Assembly (NCBI GenBank): GCA_016745055.1
Contig: JADGDF010000019.1
Span: 1 to 40,660, forward strand
Direction: 5' to 3'
DNA: 40,660 nucleotides
Origin: Thiotrichaceae bacterium
Lineage (GTDB): Bacteria > Pseudomonadota > Gammaproteobacteria > Beggiatoales > Beggiatoaceae
The notes beneath the pieces were generated by a model. That model was given only the letters and a program-made list of their open reading frames with translations, made no database searches and had not been told where the DNA came from. The number at the start of each line of letters is the position of its first letter. Positions within the stretch are counted from its first letter, which is position 1. Both the position numbers and the translations under genes were made by a program. Shown here piece after piece: positions 13,201 to 22,392 of this stretch.

Positions 13201-13788
13201 GTAACTACCTACCTATAGCGATTAAGCAATAGTAGTAGGCAAGAATAAATTACGTAAAGAGGTGACCAACAGTCGTGCACTGCGGCTCCTTTGAAATCTT
13301 TAATTTTGGATATTTACCATGTTGTTTTACTCCACAACATGTTATCTGCCCTATTTGATGTTTGGTTACTTCTAGTTTTGGGTCTGGTATATCAAATACT
13401 TGTCTATTTTTTATCGTTTGATGTTTGTTTTTTTCGCTGAATTTACGTCCACAACATGTACATTTTTCTGGTAAATGCACTTTCACATGGTCTGGGTTGG
13501 ATACTTGTTTTAAGGTTTTTCCTTTGTGGCCTACCTTCCCACCATGAGGATGTTTTACACTTTTTGGGATGGCTGGTTTAGTGGTTTTCTTATATCCATC
13601 GCTACTTGGTGGTTTATGGCTATTTCCACTATTCAACCCCAAACGACCACGCAACTTAGCTATTTCTGCTTTTAGTTGCTTGTTCTCTTCTAATAGTTCC
13701 AATATTAGGATTTTTAATGAGTCTATGTCGTTTGGTAAGTCTTTCATCTTTTTATTTTAACCGTTTTTTTGTTATCGTAGGTAGTTAC
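13201..13788 (-). mobile_element. internally deleted IS66-family element with intact ends
   Basis: The ends are a perfect 12-bp inverted repeat, GTAACTACCTAC at 13201-13212 and its complement at 13777-13788. Directly outside them is an 8-bp direct repeat AAAAAAGC (13193-13200 and 13789-13796). IS66-family elements start with GTAA and make 8-bp target duplications, so both fit. The element is only 588 bp and encodes just the transposase N-terminus, so the DDE catalytic part is missing. It could still be moved by an intact relative acting in trans. Confidence 0.85.
13250..13747 (-). pseudogene. IS66-family transposase, N-terminal fragment
   Basis: 165 codons. A leucine-rich coiled coil (LKILILELLEENKQLKAEIA) is followed by LNSGNSHKPPSSDG, then the zinc-binding segment with CTCCGRKF and ITCCGV. 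This is the N-terminal DNA-binding region of IS66-type (TnpC-like) transposases. The frame ends at QCTTVGHLFT, far short of the usual 450-550 residues, with the whole RNase H-like catalytic domain absent. It lies inside the 588-bp element with intact ends. It may still make a DNA-binding fragment that competes with a full transposase, but that is speculation. Confidence 0.85.
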
Positions 13789-14151: not shown

Positions 14152-15636
14152 ATGGATGATACAATTGAATTTTTAGCCCTTAATTTAAAATTATTAGGGC
14201 GTCGTACCAAAAAAAATATATTGATTAGTACTGGCCGAAAAGATTATAAATTAAAAATGCTGAATGCTATTAAAGAATTACTTAAACTTGATGTTACCTT
14301 GTTTGCAACGCATGGTACGGCTGTTTTTCTTCGAGAACATGGCATTGAAACTCAAGAACTATACAAAATCGCAGGAAAAAAAGAGCCTAATATCCGTTCC
14401 TTTCTTCAAGCTGATCGTTTCGATCTTGTCATTAATATTTTAACGGGTGATCATGATTACGACGAAACTACTGATAGTAATTTAATTAGATGTGCTTGTA
14501 TTGAACGTAGTATTCCTCTGATTACAGACGTAGATATTGGCATTAATACCATTAAAAACCTGGTCAAAAAAAGTGAACGCGGCGATTTAAAATACAAGTT
14601 AGATAATCCTAACCAACCCTGGAATATTCAAAATGAATTCATGCGACTGGTAAAACAAAATGGTGGATTTGCTTGCTACCACGCACATTTTGATAAAGCC
14701 TATTTGATCTCTATGGAAAATCTGAAATTGAGCCAGGTCGATATGCAAAAAAAGTGGAGCTTATATAAATATCTTAAAGAAAGTTATACCCACGAAGATT
14801 TGGTTGAACGTATGTCTCGAGCTGTTGAAATCATGATTCAACAGGGTGTAACCCATTGCCGCAGCTTTATTGATGCAGATAGTACTGTCAAACTTCAACC
14901 CATTGAAGCAGCGCTTGAAGTCAGAGAAAAATATAAAGACTTAATTTACCTTGAATTTGCAGTTCAACCATTGCAAGGTGTAATTGACAACGATTCTCGC
15001 CACTACTTTCAAAAAGCCTGTGAACTAGCAGATGTGATTGGCGGTTTACCTTCCAAAGATCGACCCACACCAGAAAAACATTTAGATTTTATTATGACCA
15101 TCGCCAAAGACCTTGGCAAAGCAGTTGATGTCCATGTAGATCAGGAAAATAATCCTGACGAGGATGAAACTGAATTATTAGCAATTAAAACCATTGAGCA
15201 TGGTTTGGAAGGTAAGGTAAGATGTGTACATTCCGTTTCTCTTGCGGCTAAACCTGTCAGTGAACAAGATAGAATTATTAAACGGATGCAAGAAGCAGGT
15301 TTAAGTGTTGTCATTTGCCCTTCAGCCGCTATTAGCATGAAACAGTTGGATCGTGTTGCTCCCTTACATAATTCCATAGCACCCGTGATTAAATTGGTTG
15401 AAAATGAAATTCCGATTTATTTAGGCGTAGATAATATCTACGACTTATTCATGCCGGTTTCTAACGGTGATATGTGGTTTGAAAGTCGTTTATTGATGGA
15501 AGCTTGTCGATTTTATGATATAGAAAAAGTAGCTGCAATAGCTTGTGATAAAGCTGGTTTTGAGACAGATCATCATTTTACTCGGCAGGTAATGCCCGAA
15601 AATCAGAAGGAAAAAACATGGAAAGTCTGTACCTGA
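14152..15636 (+). CDS. fusion of an MGS-like domain and a cytosine deaminase-like amidohydrolase
   Basis: 494 residues, start supported by GAGGA six bases upstream. Residues about 20-135 match the methylglyoxal synthase-like fold found at the C-terminus of carbamoyl-phosphate synthetase large subunits: [53 protein letters not shown]. From about 160 on it is an amidohydrolase: metal ligands His177 and His179 in HAHFDKAY, His328 in DVHVDQE, His360 in VHSVSL and Asp427 in LGVDN. The spacing is closest to cytosine deaminase and related aminohydrolases. The MGS-like fold often binds a phosphate ligand or an allosteric nucleotide, so a regulated pyrimidine or related deaminase/hydrolase is a reasonable guess; the substrate is unknown. 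rnt follows within 10 bases. Confidence 0.82.
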
Positions 15637-15646
15637 AAAAAAATTA

Positions 15647-16273
15647 ATGCACACTAATAATTTTTACGATATATCAAGACGCTTCCGTGGATACTTACCC
15701 GTCGTAGTGGATGTTGAAACGGCAGGATTTAACCCACAGCGCGATGCGTTATTAGAAATTGCTGCCGTTACCTTACAAATTAACGAGGCAGGACTTTGGC
15801 AACGAAAGAAAACCCACCATTGTCATGTATTGCCTTTTGAAGGGGCAAATTTGGAGCCAAGCGCATTGGAATTTACGGGGATTGATCCGTACCATCCTTT
15901 TCGCTATGCAGTTTCAGAATCTGATGCTTTAAAAAAAATTTTCAAACCGATTCGAGAAGACGTGAAGACAACACATTGCAGTCGCGCTATTTTGGTGGGT
16001 CACAATCCTTCATTTGATTTGAGCTTTATCAATGCAGCCGCCAAACGCACCAGTATGAAACGTAACCCTTTCCATCCTTTCAGTACGTTTGATACAGCAA
16101 CTTTAGGCGGGTTGATTTATGGACAAACGGTTTTAGCAAAAGGCGTGATGGCTGCAGGGATTCAATGGGATCCAAAAGAGGCACACTCAGCAATTTATGA
16201 TGCAGAACAGACAGCCGATTTATTTTGTAAAATTGTGAATGTTTGGCACCAAGCCAGCAGAAATAATCGATAA
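15647..16273 (+). CDS. rnt: ribonuclease T
   Basis: 208 residues, the normal length. DEDDh exonuclease motifs are complete: Asp22 and Glu24 in VDVETAG, Asp124 in NPSFDLSF, His180 and Asp185 in [12 protein letters not shown]. Other family features are [13 protein letters not shown] and [12 protein letters not shown]. RNase T is a dimeric 3'-5' exonuclease that trims tRNA 3' ends (CCA turnover) and matures 5S and 23S rRNA. The ATG lies ten bases after the upstream stop codon with no clear ribosome binding site, suggesting translational coupling to the deaminase-like gene. Confidence 0.95.
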
Positions 16274-17841: not shown

Positions 17842-17994
17842 ATGCTTACCGATATGCAATCCAACACTCAAGCTGAAACAGTTCCTTTTTTTGCTCGTTT
17901 CTTAGAAAGCCAAAAATCTGCAAAATCAACACAGGAACTCAATGCAGCCGCTCCTGTAACCTACAAATACCCTTCTGATGATGAAGACTATTAG
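17842..17994 (+). CDS. mdnA: microviridin-type graspetide precursor peptide
   Basis: 50 residues with AGGAG at ideal spacing. Residues 15-22 are PFFARFLE, the conserved leader helix that docks on microviridin ATP-grasp ligases. The last 11 residues are TYKYPSDDEDY, matching the microviridin core TxKYPSDxE(D/E)(Y/W). By analogy, Thr40-Asp46 and Ser45-Glu48 would form the two lactones and Lys42-Asp49 the lactam, giving a tricyclic cage. The residue in the x position of TxK, Tyr41, sets protease selectivity in known members and predicts a chymotrypsin-like target. Position 47 is Asp instead of the common Trp, adding an extra acidic residue. The leader/core cut is not marked by a double glycine; APV precedes the Thr. 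It is followed by both ligases and an exporter. Confidence 0.93.
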   Translation: MLTDMQSNTQAETVPFFARFLESQKSAKSTQELNAAAPVTYKYPSDDEDY

Positions 17995-18026
17995 TAGCGA
18001 CGAAGTAAAAGCTTTAGCATGAAAGC

Positions 18027-18098
18027 TAGGTTCTGTTGGTATTTTATGATATAGCTTATTAAGCTATAAGGAGTTGTGTTAAATAGTAACAGAACCTA
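18027..18098. repeat. 72-bp TA-flanked palindromic element between precursor and ligase
   Basis: 20-nt arms at 18027-18046 and 18079-18098 are inverted copies with 17 of 20 matches, including the perfect outer 11 bp TAGGTTCTGTT. Inside is a second hairpin, TATAGCTTA/TAAGCTATA (18050-18058/18060-18068). Both ends carry TA. It could be a tiny transposon-derived unit. As RNA it would put a stable structure 33 bases after the precursor stop, which could protect the precursor mRNA or reduce read-through into the ligase genes. There is no U-run, so it is not a standard terminator. Confidence 0.65.
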
Positions 18099-18207
18099 AT
18101 AATGATTAGCGTGTTAGCCTTTAAAATACTCTACTTCTTAATATATTGCTATCAAACATTACTTACTTGGTTATTTTTCATCCCTCATTAAAACCTAAGA
18201 TAAGTTT

Positions 18208-19185
18208 ATGCATTTATCCCGCAACGTTATTTTATTAGTCACACATAGTGGTGATTTTTTCACCATTGATCGAGTAAGCGATGCTTTATCAAACAAAGGG
18301 GCTAATCCTTTTCGTCTGGATACCGATAAATTTCCATTAGACATTCAGTTTAGTTCACAGTTTTCTGGCCAAGGTCACAGTTATATTCTCCACTACGGTA
18401 GTGAATCTATCAGTTCGGAATCAGTGCGTGCTGTTTGGATGCGTCGTTTGTGGAAGCCTGATCTGGGACAGAGTTTATCTCCACAGTATCAAGAAGCTTG
18501 TATTCGTGAATCCAAAGCGACGTTATCAGGATTTTGGGATAGTTTGAGAAATGTCCGTTGGATAGATAATTTAGAACGTGTAGACTTTGCTCAAAATAAA
18601 CAGCGTCAACTACGTGTTGCATCTGAAGTGGGCCTGACAATTCCTCGTACATTAATTACTAATAACCCAGAATCTGTACGCAAATTTTTCCAACAATTAC
18701 AGGGAAAAATGGTTACGAAGCTTTTAACCGCACTCTCTTACAGTATGGAATATTCTTCTTTTTCCTTTTATACCAGTGCGGTTAAAGAAGAAGATTTGCA
18801 AATGGCTGACTCACTACGTTATTGTCCCATGGTATTTCAAGAAGAAATTCCTAAACAATTAGAATTACGAGTGGTATTTGTTCAAGGCAAAGTCTTTGTG
18901 GGTGCATTGGATGTATCTGCTTACACGGCATCTAAAACAGATTGGCGTAAACCAGATGTTGCAGTGGGCGCATGGCAACATCACGATTTACCAAGTGAAC
19001 TTATCGAAAAAATTCAAACCTTTATGACTCAATTTGGGCTACTTTTTGGAGCCTTCGACTTTATTCTTACCCCTTCTGGAGAATATATTTTTTTAGAAGT
19101 GAATCCCGCAGGCGAATGGGGCATGTTGGAACGTGATCTCAATTTGCCAATTTCTGAAGCAATTGCAGAAGCTTTAATTGCTTAG
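18208..19185 (+). CDS. mdnB: ATP-grasp peptide ligase, MdnB/MvdC type (lactam-forming)
   Basis: 325 residues. Matches the MdnB branch of graspetide ligases closely: LLVTHSGDFFTIDRV, FRLDTDKFPL, VWMRRLWKP, ACIRESKATL, FWDSL, VGLTIPRTLITNNP, MVFQEEIPKQLELRVV, WQHHDLP. The ATP/Mg site is in the C-terminal ATP-grasp half, with Asp284 (GAFDF), Glu297 and Asn299 (FLEVNPAGEWG). By homology it activates the side-chain carboxylate of the precursor as acyl phosphate and joins it to the core lysine, closing the lactam after both lactones. The gene starts 213 bases after the precursor and lacks an obvious ribosome binding site, so expression may be lower than that of the precursor. It is followed by a short hairpin (TACTTTG/CAAAGTA) and the second ligase. 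Confidence 0.93.
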   Translation: MHLSRNVILLVTHSGDFFTIDRVSDALSNKGANPFRLDTDKFPLDIQFSSQFSGQGHSYILHYGSESISSESVRAVWMRRLWKPDLGQSLSPQYQEACIRESKATLSGFWDSLRNVRWIDNLERVDFAQNKQRQLRVASEVGLTIPRTLITNNPESVRKFFQQLQGKMVTKLLTALSYSMEYSSFSFYTSAVKEEDLQMADSLRYCPMVFQEEIPKQLELRVVFVQGKVFVGALDVSAYTASKTDWRKPDVAVGAWQHHDLPSELIEKIQTFMTQFGLLFGAFDFILTPSGEYIFLEVNPAGEWGMLERDLNLPISEAIAEALIA

Positions 19186-19300
19186 TACTTTGCCAAAGTA
19201 TAATGACTAGCACAATAACACCTAGTGCATAAGACGCATTCTACAAAGTAATATTGGCAGCATACTAGGTCCTCAACATTAGAAATAATTATAAAATAAT

Positions 19301-20284
19301 ATGACAGTACTCATTGTAACGTTTAGCCAAGATAATGAAAGTATTTCCTTGGTCACTCAAGCGATTGAAGCTAAAGGTGGCAACGCATTTCGTTTTGATA
19401 CAGACCGATTTCCTACTGAAGTGTTACTGGATATTGGCCAAGGAAATGATGAGTGTGTCATCATCTCAGACGGTGACCAACAACTTAATTTAAATGATGT
19501 TTCTGCGGTGTGGTATCGGCGGGCGCGTTATGGTAAAAAAATTCCTGACACGATGGAACAACAACATAGAGAAGCTTCTATTAAGGAAACGCGAGTCACC
19601 ATTAGAGGAATGCTTGCCAGCGTCCAAGGGTTCCATTTTGATAATATATTTGATGTCGAACGAGCTAATAATAAGCAATTGCAATTGCAAGTGGCACGGG
19701 AAGTGGGTTTAACTACACCACGCACATTAAGTACAAATAATCCTGAAGCAGTCAAGCAATTTGCTGATAAATGCAAAGCACAAGGTATCATTGCCAAAAT
19801 GCTTTCTTCATTTGCAATTTATGGAGAGCAAGGTGAAGAACAAGTTGTTTTTACCAATCCTGTGACTGACGAAGATTTAGCAAATCTTGAGGGTTTACGC
19901 TTTTGTCCCACGACTTTTCAAGAAAAAATCCCCAAAGCATTAGAATTACGCACCACGATTGTTGGCCAGCAAATATTTACTGCTGCTGTCGATTCACAAA
20001 GTTTGAAACAGTCTACTTACGATTGGAGAAAGGAAGGAGCAGCTCTCGTCAAATCTTGGCAACCTTATGATTTACCAAAAGAGGTTGAAAGCAAATTGCT
20101 TCAATTAATGGCTTATTTTCATTTAAACTACGGTGCAATTGATATTATTGTCACACCCGACGGACGTTATGTCTTTCTTGAAATAAACCCCGTAGGTGAG
20201 TTTTTTTGGATGGAATTGTATTCCCCTTACTTTCCAATTTCACAAGCAATTGCAGAGATGCTACTTGTACAAAGCAAGAAATAG
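19301..20284 (+). CDS. mdnC: ATP-grasp peptide ligase, MdnC/MvdD type (lactone-forming)
   Basis: 327 residues. It matches the MdnC branch from the first residues: MTVLIVTFSQDNESI, FRFDTDRFPTE, VSAVWYRR, NNKQLQLQVAREVGL, KMLSSFAIYGEQ, FCPTTFQEKIPKALELRTTI, WQPYDLP, LNYGAIDIIVTPDGRYVFLE. Metal-binding residues are Asp281, Glu294 and Asn296 (LEINPVGEFFW). By homology it forms the two omega-ester bonds (Thr-Asp, then Ser-Glu) on the leader-bound precursor before the lactam ligase acts. It lies 115 bases after mdnB; no strong ribosome binding site is visible. The exporter starts 26 bases after its stop. Only about a third of residues agree with mdnB by eye, so the two are ancient paralogues, not a recent duplication. 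Confidence 0.94.
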   Translation: MTVLIVTFSQDNESISLVTQAIEAKGGNAFRFDTDRFPTEVLLDIGQGNDECVIISDGDQQLNLNDVSAVWYRRARYGKKIPDTMEQQHREASIKETRVTIRGMLASVQGFHFDNIFDVERANNKQLQLQVAREVGLTTPRTLSTNNPEAVKQFADKCKAQGIIAKMLSSFAIYGEQGEEQVVFTNPVTDEDLANLEGLRFCPTTFQEKIPKALELRTTIVGQQIFTAAVDSQSLKQSTYDWRKEGAALVKSWQPYDLPKEVESKLLQLMAYFHLNYGAIDIIVTPDGRYVFLEINPVGEFFWMELYSPYFPISQAIAEMLLVQSKK

Positions 20285-20310
20285 TTCTATCACATATTTT
20301 GGAGGGTGAG

Positions 20311-22392
20311 ATGGCCCAACCTAATAAAAATCAACATTCTAATGTTGTTCACCTTTCTGGAATTGCGGTAGGCAGCGCCTTATTTGGCACACCCCTTGCT
20401 GTGGCGCTTGTTGCAAACTATGCGAGCGTTTCTCTAACAGGCCAAAATTTATTAACTAATCTGTTCAAAACACGTAAAAAAAACAAATTATCAAAAAGAC
20501 AGGAACTATATCAAAAATATCAACAGAAAAAGACACTCTCAAAAAATAAAACAGTTGATGCTAACACTGAAAAAACTGAACCTCAATTTATAAAAAATGT
20601 TGAACTCTTCAAACTAATCTCATCGCTAGAAACATCGCAACAAAGGCATTTACGTTATAGAGCGATGGCTTATTCTTCTTTAACGACAACGACCACGCTT
20701 ATTACCCACATTTCAATAGGACTAATTGCTGTGGCAGTCATTTCTGGTGGGCTACCAATACTCACACAGTGGGGAATCAAAAGTGTATTCGTACAAATAG
20801 GCGCTTTAAGTGGTGTGGCCTTAACCTCAATGGCAGGAGAGTCTTTTACCCGTTATCAAAGCACTCGACAATGGAAAAATTATGCGACAGAGATTGAACA
20901 TGAATTACGTGTAAAAGCTTATGATCATGTCCAATGTTTGGATATGGTAGAATTGGAAAAACATAGCAGTGGGGAATTAGCTAATTTAATTCATTTTAAC
21001 CCGGTAAAAGTCAGATTATTTTTAGAAATGATACCTCAACGTATCATTGACAGAACTTTAAATTTACTACTTGGTGCCTTATTTTTGTTATTCTTTATTC
21101 CCATTTCTCTAGCGCTGGCTTTAACAGCGTTACTTTTACCTTATTTTTTACTTCGGCATTTTCATCATAAAATTGCCTCTCAATACCAACAATCAAGTCA
21201 AGCTGAAGCCAATGTTAATAAACAATTACTCAATAGCCTGGGAGGGCTACCCACGATAAAAAGTTTTACGACAGAAGCACATGAAGTTAAGTGTTTAGCA
21301 GAGCAAAGCAACGCGATGCGCGAACAACACGCCAATGTCACCAAGTTAGTTTCTCAAAGTATTGAACTCAGCCAGTTTTCCCTTTTCCCTGGTTTACTTG
21401 CACCTGTTGCTATAGGGGGAATTTTTGTATTAACAGGACAACTTTCTTTAACCGTTTTCATACTTCAAAACGCCATTTTACCTAAAGTAATGCAAGTGAT
21501 GATGCATTTAAGCAATGATTATCACTTTTATCGTAATGCTGACATTGCCTCTCAGGAATTGAATCAGCTCTTTAACCAACAATCCATTATTCATAATGGC
21601 ACAATTCATCTGCAAACGACACCAAATCAAGATCAAATATCATTCCAAAACATCTCTTTTTCATACAACGTTAATGAAAGAGTATTGAATAACATAAACT
21701 TGCATATTGATCCAGGAGAAACTATTGCCTTTGTTGGACCTACAGGGGCAGGAAAAACCACGATCACAAAATTGCTACTCCGTTTTTATGATATTCAAGC
21801 AGGCCAAATTTTGTTAAACGGTTATAATTTGCGTGATTTAGATATTTTAAGTTTACGTCAAGCGATAGGCTTAGTTAGCCAAGAGGTTTATTTATTTCCT
21901 GGTACTATTTATGAAAATATTTGCTATGGCACACCCAATAGTTCTGACGAAGCTGTGATGGAAGCTGCGCGTATTGCCGAAGTGAGTTCATTTGTGAGCA
22001 AATTACCCAATGGATTTGAGACGATTGTGGGAGAACGGGGACAAAAGTTATCTGGTGGACAACGACAACGCATTGCGATTGCCAGAGCATTACTCAGAAA
22101 TCCGCCTATTATGATCATGGATGAAGCAACGTCAGCTATAGATAATGAGACAGAAGCCGCTATTCAAAGAGCCATTGCTCGATTTTCTCAAGGACGGATT
22201 ACCATTATTATTGCACATCGTCTTTCTACTGTTCGCCATGTTGATTGCATTTACGTCATGAAACAAGGTCAAATTATTGAACAGGGAACGCATGATAATT
22301 TGCTAAAAGAACAAGGTTATTATGAGCAATTATGGAAGTTGCAAACAGGAGAAAACCAATTAGAGTTAGTAATTCCTACATTAAACGATTGA
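20311..22392 (+). CDS. mdnE: ABC exporter of the graspetide cluster, MdnE-like
   Basis: 693 residues from the ATG at 20311, chosen because GGAGGGTGAG abuts it; an in-frame ATG at 20206 lies inside mdnC and has no ribosome site. Residues 1-110 are an extension with one hydrophobic segment (17-41) and a Lys/Gln-rich linker. An exporter-type membrane domain (about 115-410) follows, then a nucleotide-binding domain: Walker A GPTGAGKT (476-483), Q-loop Gln524, signature LSGGQ (580-584), Walker B with Asp604-Glu605, His636 in IAHRLST. It is a half transporter and should work as a homodimer. There is no C39 peptidase domain, so leader removal needs another protease. Its place fits export of the cyclised peptide, and in cyanobacteria the transporter is also reported to support correct processing. 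Confidence 0.92.
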   Translation: MAQPNKNQHSNVVHLSGIAVGSALFGTPLAVALVANYASVSLTGQNLLTNLFKTRKKNKLSKRQELYQKYQQKKTLSKNKTVDANTEKTEPQFIKNVELFKLISSLETSQQRHLRYRAMAYSSLTTTTTLITHISIGLIAVAVISGGLPILTQWGIKSVFVQIGALSGVALTSMAGESFTRYQSTRQWKNYATEIEHELRVKAYDHVQCLDMVELEKHSSGELANLIHFNPVKVRLFLEMIPQRIIDRTLNLLLGALFLLFFIPISLALALTALLLPYFLLRHFHHKIASQYQQSSQAEANVNKQLLNSLGGLPTIKSFTTEAHEVKCLAEQSNAMREQHANVTKLVSQSIELSQFSLFPGLLAPVAIGGIFVLTGQLSLTVFILQNAILPKVMQVMMHLSNDYHFYRNADIASQELNQLFNQQSIIHNGTIHLQTTPNQDQISFQNISFSYNVNERVLNNINLHIDPGETIAFVGPTGAGKTTITKLLLRFYDIQAGQILLNGYNLRDLDILSLRQAIGLVSQEVYLFPGTIYENICYGTPNSSDEAVMEAARIAEVSSFVSKLPNGFETIVGERGQKLSGGQRQRIAIARALLRNPPIMIMDEATSAIDNETEAAIQRAIARFSQGRITIIIAHRLSTVRHVDCIYVMKQGQIIEQGTHDNLLKEQGYYEQLWKLQTGENQLELVIPTLND

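Follow-up and report, generated by a model that had tools for sequence, protein, structure and literature searches.

The window, a 40,660-nucleotide stretch of DNA from a Thiotrichaceae bacterium, carries a gene that joins an MGS-like domain to an amidohydrolase, and outside Patescibacteria this fusion is almost mutually exclusive with the genes for the canonical ATCase PyrB and dihydroorotase PyrC. We consider it very probable that the fusion protein functionally takes the place of PyrB and PyrC when pyrimidines are made de novo, and we favor, with less assurance, a fuller explanation in which both enzymes are replaced by way of argininosuccinate and its conversion to dihydroorotate. To our knowledge, synthesis of UMP in six steps is regarded as close to universal. 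No description of this family (NCBIfam NF005365), of the fusion or of such a route was found in the literature searched, most subscription journals being outside the scope of that search.

The gene encodes 494 amino acids from an ATG start, with a GAGG motif 7 nt upstream (Table 1). As an earlier note made from the letters alone had proposed, the product is a two-domain protein: Pfam detected the MGS domain (E = 8.4e-16; score 58.3 bits, cut-off 24.1) and an Amidohydro_1 domain at residues 172–450 (E = 2.5e-9), and NCBIfam assigned the amidohydrolase part to NF005365 (score 436.6 bits, cut-off 340), which is the same family as PRK06886 and is labeled "hypothetical protein" by NCBI. Because near full-length fused homologues occur in several phyla and form one clade, the joining of the two domains is a genuine, old and conserved architecture and not a chance read-through.

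Table 1. Positions of the fusion gene and its functional landmarks in the window, and of two further kinds of MGS fusion in Patescibacterial loci
Feature	Position	Strand	Basis
MGS-amidohydrolase fusion gene (NF005365 family)	14152..15636	+	ORF, Pfam, NCBIfam
MGS-like domain, residues 36-125	14257..14526	+	Pfam PF02142; aligned with CarB of the same genome
Amidohydrolase domain, residues 158-465, cytosine deaminase/AtzC-like barrel	14623..15546	+	NCBIfam, AlphaFold2 model
HxH metal-binding motif, H177 and H179	14680..14688	+	44/44 rows
Family signature H328-x-D-Q-E-N-N-P335, including metal ligand H328	15133..15156	+	all but x in 44/44 rows
H360, counterpart of AtzC His249	15229..15231	+	alignment with AtzC; 44/44 rows
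D427-N428, counterparts of AtzC Asp303-Asn304	15430..15435	+	alignment with AtzC; 44/44 rows
Argininosuccinate synthase-MGS and asparagine-ligase/AsnRS-like-MGS fusions	L051:4804-6417, L051:7301-8719; L038:6989-8626		

Scanning a single genome for each species yielded 49 NF005365-type loci. The fused form was found in Thiotrichaceae, Chromatiaceae, Hyphomicrobiales, Desulfobulbaceae (including cable bacteria), Campylobacterales, Planctomycetes, Verrucomicrobia and a Myxococcales MAG, and it formed a single clade in a quick tree (SH-aLRT 99). The amidohydrolase stands alone in 14 genomes, which belong to Patescibacteria and to two bacteria that group with them (together, the Patescibacteria type). 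The family was present in 11 of the 397 genomes of the Hyphomicrobium order, and one of the fused genomes (G055, locus L019) is that of Hyphomicrobium zavarzinii ATCC 27496. The carriers searched amounted to 52 genomes, 50 of them distinct, since G018 and G040, as well as G020 and G045, gave identical match places.

The surroundings of the fused gene were considered as a functional clue and showed no common theme, with the exception of Verrucomicrobia, where the fusion lies directly 5' of pyrF (L031 and L032); the proteobacterial fusion genes have no adjoining arg or pyr genes. In the window an RNase T gene (15647..16273, plus strand, 306.8 bits) begins 10 nt 3' of the fusion gene, and a related RNase T gene also lies 3' of the fusion in L004; the neighbors are genes for a YgfZ-like protein and a methyladenine glycosylase in Hyphomicrobium and for a TPR protein in Desulfobulbaceae, and different again in other groups. 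On the 5' side, a fragment-sized N-terminal piece of an IS66-type transposase (DUF6444, with zf-IS66 slightly under its cut-off) occupies 13250..13747 of the minus strand. Farther along, at 17842..22392 (plus strand), this Beggiatoa-like genome holds a microviridin-type RiPP cluster comprising a 50-residue precursor with a PFFARFLE leader motif and a TYKYPSDDEDY terminus, which we take to be microviridin-type motifs, an MvdC ATP-grasp ligase (501 bits), a second ATP-grasp protein with an MvdD pre-ATP-grasp domain and an ABC transporter.

The occurrence of PyrB was scored with the model TIGR00670, which exceeded its cut-off in 14 of 14 controls; here and below, absence means that a profile cut-off was not reached in a draft genome or MAG. 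PyrB passed in only 8 of the 50 distinct carriers, namely seven of the Patescibacteria type and the MAG G046, and hence in 1 of 36 fused genomes; four extra carriers from the Hyphomicrobium order had none (0/4). When these were pooled, PyrB was present in 1 of 40 non-Patescibacterial carriers as compared with 103 of 106 relatives without the fusion. The difference was seen within the window's family (0/3 carriers versus 22/22 non-carriers; Fisher p = 4e-4, kinship ignored) and within the Hyphomicrobium order, where 69 of the 386 family-negative genomes were tested (0/11 versus 67/69; Fisher p = 7e-12, kinship ignored), and the loss recurs in several phyla. Counting all relatives tested along with those of the window's family, 36 of 37 had PyrB, the one miss being a 62% complete genome; the two misses in the Hyphomicrobium order are a gene split over two contigs (G117) and a genome with two matches below the cut-off (G132).

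Type I PyrC (TIGR00857) was over its cut-off in none of the 36 fused genomes, compared with 19 of 22 relatives in the window's family, where two further relatives scored 259–270 bits; some fused genomes gave weaker amidohydrolase matches, those of G046 and G061 reaching 253 and 208 bits. Type II PyrC (TIGR00856) passed in one of the 36, again G046. These PyrC counts cover the 36 fused genomes, the four extra Hyphomicrobium-order carriers standing outside them. The MAG G046, labeled Rhodobacterales (L010/L101), thus contains the fusion, PyrB and PyrC together, with two MGS matches only, neither in a CarB-sized frame. Contamination was considered: the contigs bearing the fusion, pyrB and pyrC are similar in GC content and tetranucleotides, the first correlating at 0.92 with the other two, and base composition does not mark them as foreign, so that G046, which may be a real exception or a mixed bin, is kept as a counter-example.

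The later enzymes of the pathway were largely retained. A PyrD-family protein was found in 50 of 54 carriers and PyrF, over its cut-off, in 46 of 50. ArgG passed in 39 of 50 carriers and in 33 of 36 fused genomes; none was found in G058 and G065, and in G054 the gene is split. The genome of the window lacks PyrB and PyrC and has CarB, OTC, ArgG, PyrD and PyrF. The link to pyrimidines that the earlier note had suspected thus holds, both in the association of the gene with missing PyrB and PyrC and in the pyrD, pyrE and pyrF neighbors described below.

The missing PyrC and the amidohydrolase fold could also mean that the protein represents a novel dihydroorotase class substituting for PyrC only, with OTC or some other enzyme carbamoylating aspartate in place of PyrB, and each of the 11 positive Hyphomicrobium-order genomes indeed has exactly one carbamoyltransferase. 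We regard this explanation as rather unlikely. The lone carbamoyltransferases of G000, G055 (H. zavarzinii) and G115 scored 415, 372 and 383 bits against TIGR00658 and by these scores are ordinary OTCs; PyrB from two non-carriers, taken for comparison, scored as ATCase. Moreover, six Patescibacteria with the gene (G074, G075, G077, G078, G081 and G087) gave no match to any carbamoyltransferase or to PyrC in profile searches, and no MGS match in a CarB-sized frame. All six had a PyrD-family protein, with weak matches in G077 and G087, and five had PyrF. Fragmentation is an unlikely cause of the absences in G075 and G087, because their loci lie on contigs of 831 and 1020 kb.

The gene neighborhoods of the Patescibacteria type connect the amidohydrolase to arginine as well as pyrimidine synthesis. 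At all 14 loci, argH (12 loci) or a gene for an ArgG-MGS fusion (two loci) adjoins the amidohydrolase gene or shares its operon: argH is adjacent in 11, in both gene orders, and in the same operon in L050/L098, and argG-MGS is adjacent in L038 and L051 (argH was called by NCBIfam in L039, L041 and L098, and by BLAST to the argH of L039 in the rest). A new dihydroorotase would leave this association unexplained. In L038 the order is amidohydrolase, argG-MGS, pyrD, a DHOD Fe-S subunit gene, a pyrE-like phosphoribosyltransferase gene and pyrF, without pyrB or pyrC; in L039 it is pyrE, amidohydrolase, argH and an asparagine-ligase-like gene; and in L051 it is argG-MGS, amidohydrolase, an asparagine-ligase-like gene fused to MGS and a pyrD-like gene, followed by pyrF and pyrE. 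The asparagine-ligase-like neighbors in L039 and L051 resemble each other only remotely, and the one in L039 has no relative in the PDB. A divergent 284-residue class II synthetase-like protein encoded 3' of argH (L039:8347-9201), which matched no NCBIfam model at 1e-20 and nothing in the PDB at 0.001, is possibly a cyclizing or amide-forming enzyme of the same pathway.

Since ArgG and ArgH share argininosuccinate and the gene for either one adjoins the amidohydrolase gene, we propose this compound as the starting point. Argininosuccinate, made by ArgG and split, or in reverse made, by ArgH, holds every ring atom of dihydroorotate: the aspartate skeleton, C2 as its guanidino carbon and N3 as its terminal nitrogen. 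It cyclizes spontaneously, and the lyase reaction is reversible. Context and chemistry together make argininosuccinate the probable substrate of the amidohydrolase. The fusion itself, the pattern of missing enzymes, the neighboring genes and the retained residues are direct observations; the substrate, the order of ring closure and ornithine release, the direction of ArgH and the ligand of the MGS domain are what we infer here.

According to this proposal, OTC would form citrulline from carbamoyl phosphate and ornithine, and ArgG would convert citrulline, aspartate and ATP to argininosuccinate. A guanidino nitrogen would then close a ring with the beta-carboxylate, and metal-bound hydroxide would attack C2 of the cyclized argininosuccinate, whereupon ornithine would leave and dihydroorotate would remain. 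Hydrolysis of the open form would yield N-carbamoylaspartate, and cutting the bond between C2 and the ornithine nitrogen in the six-membered anhydride would give dihydroorotate directly. PyrD, PyrE and PyrF would carry dihydroorotate to UMP, and ornithine would be recycled. In G075, G077, G078 and G081, which lack ArgG as well and in which argH adjoins the amidohydrolase gene, we propose arginine and fumarate as the feed for this reason; such Patescibacteria would make argininosuccinate by reversed ArgH. The proposed product and the subsequent PyrD, PyrE and PyrF steps are identical to those of the route through PyrB and PyrC, which are of other protein families, start from carbamoyl phosphate and aspartate instead of argininosuccinate and release no ornithine. 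Ornithine, citrulline, argininosuccinate and the regeneration of ornithine are common to the proposal and the ornithine (urea) cycle, from which it differs in that dihydroorotate, and not arginine or urea, would be the product that exits.

The amidohydrolase domain retains a complete set of metal ligands, as the earlier note had stated: H177, H179, H328 and D427, together with the catalytic H360, were invariant in all 44 aligned rows. The alignment consists of the window and 43 of the 49 scanned loci, leaving aside two near copies (L009 and L015), a broken frame (L028), two genes cut by contig ends (L035 and L049) and one with an N run (L051). An AlphaFold2 model of the fusion protein (mean pLDDT 86.6; residues 473–494 below 50) has a barrel that superimposes on cytosine deaminase 3o7u (Z 39.1, 330 residues, rmsd 5.0) and on AtzC 4cqb (Z 36.7, 300 residues, rmsd 2.3). 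Consistent with these matches, a profile of 44 homologues detected AtzC at 1.8e-34 and CodA at 3.1e-30 in the PDB, as well as the MGS domain of carbamoyl-phosphate synthase (2yvq) at 2.3e-10. The best structural matches are mononuclear deaminases, and the 50 matches listed include no dihydroorotase and give no evidence for a different fold; neither type of PyrC model matched the fusion protein at E values up to 0.01. As far as the listed entries reach, a new dihydroorotase class is disfavored by these structural matches as well.

The nearest solved sequence relative is AtzC (N-isopropylammelide isopropylaminohydrolase; PDB 2qt3 and 4cqb), with 24–25% identity. Its Lys65, His249, Asp303 and Asn304 have counterparts in K182 (Lys in 38 and Arg in 6 of 44 rows), H360, D427 and N428 (44/44), and its chemistry, hydrolysis of an N-alkylamine from a carbon of a six-membered ring, resembles the step proposed here; metal hydroxide removes the alkylamine from the ring carbon with His249 as the base, and CodA Asp314 is the position of AtzC Asn304 (PMC4577212). 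CodA (PDB 3o7u and 1k6w) has the fold and the three-His/Asp metal site in common with the fusion and differs in its Asp314, which is Asn here, in the MGS fusion and in genome context. The substrate-binding Gln of both enzymes (CodA Gln156, AtzC Gln160) is replaced by Leu in 42 of 44 rows (L274), and because of this replacement the pocket, as judged from the alignment, differs from those of CodA and AtzC. AtzC furthermore has no MGS domain and serves atrazine breakdown, as opposed to the proposed UMP synthesis. D330-Q331-E332, in the region of CodA Glu217 and AtzC His219, is present in 44/44 rows, the exact partner of Glu217 being ambiguous by sequence. K201, K209, R220, R304 and R453, which are also invariant in the 44 rows, could bind carboxylates.

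With cytosine deaminases and AtzC as its nearest named relatives, the protein might instead deaminate cytosine or some other base for salvage in organisms that have lost de novo synthesis. This is decidedly improbable, given the retention of PyrD and PyrF in most carriers, their clustering with pyrE in L038 and L051 and the substitutions of CodA Asp314 and of the CodA/AtzC Gln. Plain salvage of cytosine or isocytosine was ruled out because PyrD and PyrF stay while PyrB and PyrC go, and the deaminase acting on cytosine, isocytosine or triazines that the earlier note had guessed at is a misfit with this loss and with the argG/argH and pyrD/E/F context. A further argument comes from a study that used H. 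zavarzinii and in which strains were grown where possible on mineral salts and methanol without pyrimidines (PMC8141765). H. zavarzinii, for which the growth section gives no strain, is not among the exceptions named there (PMC8141765); if it was grown on the pyrimidine-free medium, H. zavarzinii needs neither PyrB nor PyrC to make pyrimidines. The loss of these two enzymes with the gene and the argG/argH and pyrD/E/F neighbors in Patescibacteria point to de novo synthesis of dihydroorotate and not to salvage of bases.

The nucleotide site of CarB presumably comprises Lys954, Thr974, Asn1015 and Thr1017 along with Thr977 and Lys993. Five of these six positions have counterparts in K33 (just upstream of the domain), T53, T56, K72 and N95 of the fusion, which all 31 fused rows retain; the sixth, Thr1017, is Leu in all 31 (L97). 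Unlike the C-terminal allosteric domain of CarB, the MGS domain of the fusion is N-terminal to its enzyme, and it is closer to the ArgG-MGS of L038 (E = 7.5e-23) than to the CarB of L050 (2.3e-11); residues were compared with those of CarB, the asparagine-ligase-like MGS and ArgG-MGS. UMP inhibits CarB, whereas IMP and ornithine activate it, and its Thr977 and Lys993 matter for UMP inhibition and binding (PMC6245113). The conserved residues lead us to lean slightly toward a nucleotide sensor; regulation by a nucleotide had been suggested in the earlier note, which named loss of the phosphate-site residues in relatives as evidence to the contrary, a loss that the 31 fused rows do not show. Once ATCase is lost, the first committed step would fall to the amidohydrolase, where control by UMP would make sense, and the MGS domain would probably sense UMP or another nucleotide there. 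Two more kinds of MGS fusion lie in Patescibacterial pyr clusters, argininosuccinate synthase-MGS and asparagine-ligase/AsnRS-like-MGS (Table 1).

The conserved phosphate/nucleotide site, and the loss of two steps matched by one chain with two domains, would also suit an enzyme whose MGS domain binds carbamoyl phosphate and carbamoylates aspartate before the amidohydrolase half closes the ring. We consider this highly improbable: the Patescibacterial amidohydrolase has no fused MGS domain, and MGS is also fused to argG and, in L051, to the asparagine-ligase-like gene. G075, G078 and G081 have neither any MGS domain nor a carbamoyltransferase match, so that carbamoyl phosphate is probably not made in them and MGS is not needed for the chemistry. 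The same three genomes weaken the idea, drawn by analogy with PurH, that MGS is an indispensable ring-closing domain.

Half of the Patescibacteria-type genomes (G076, G079, G080, G083, G084, G086 and G088) keep PyrB, and six of these seven have PyrC over the cut-off, that of G086 being short and below it. In Kerfeldbacteria, an operon at L098:7318-19145 contains the stand-alone amidohydrolase gene, carA, carB, a short pyrB (282 aa), a short pyrC (324 aa) and argH, with 3' ORFs consistent with pyrD, an electron-transfer subunit gene, pyrE and pyrF. This operon (L050/L098) demonstrates that the amidohydrolase can coexist with the classical route, and it would hold the classical and proposed routes side by side. 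These seven genomes and the argH or argG neighbors would be accommodated if the amidohydrolase degraded arginine or citrulline and were tied to pyrimidines through shared regulation only, but this reading is improbable, as it offers no reason why 35 of the 36 fused genomes have lost both PyrB and PyrC. Under the argininosuccinate route, the gene may provide an additional entry fed by arginine where the classical enzymes persist.

Taken together, we find it somewhat likelier than its negation that bacteria possess a second de novo pyrimidine route, built from the ornithine cycle and an AtzC-like amidohydrolase, with UMP control on an MGS domain borne by the amidohydrolase or by ArgG, and operating in some Patescibacteria without carbamoyl phosphate. 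If this is true, a widespread gene that replaces two steps of the UMP route by way of a different intermediate would add to biochemistry at a basic level, and arginine and pyrimidine metabolism would be joined in one cycle. Many assignments of pyrimidine auxotrophy made from missing pyrB and pyrC, above all in Patescibacteria, would be corrected, and a family of "hypothetical proteins" would gain a function that can be tested in cultivable Hyphomicrobium and Rhodomicrobium.
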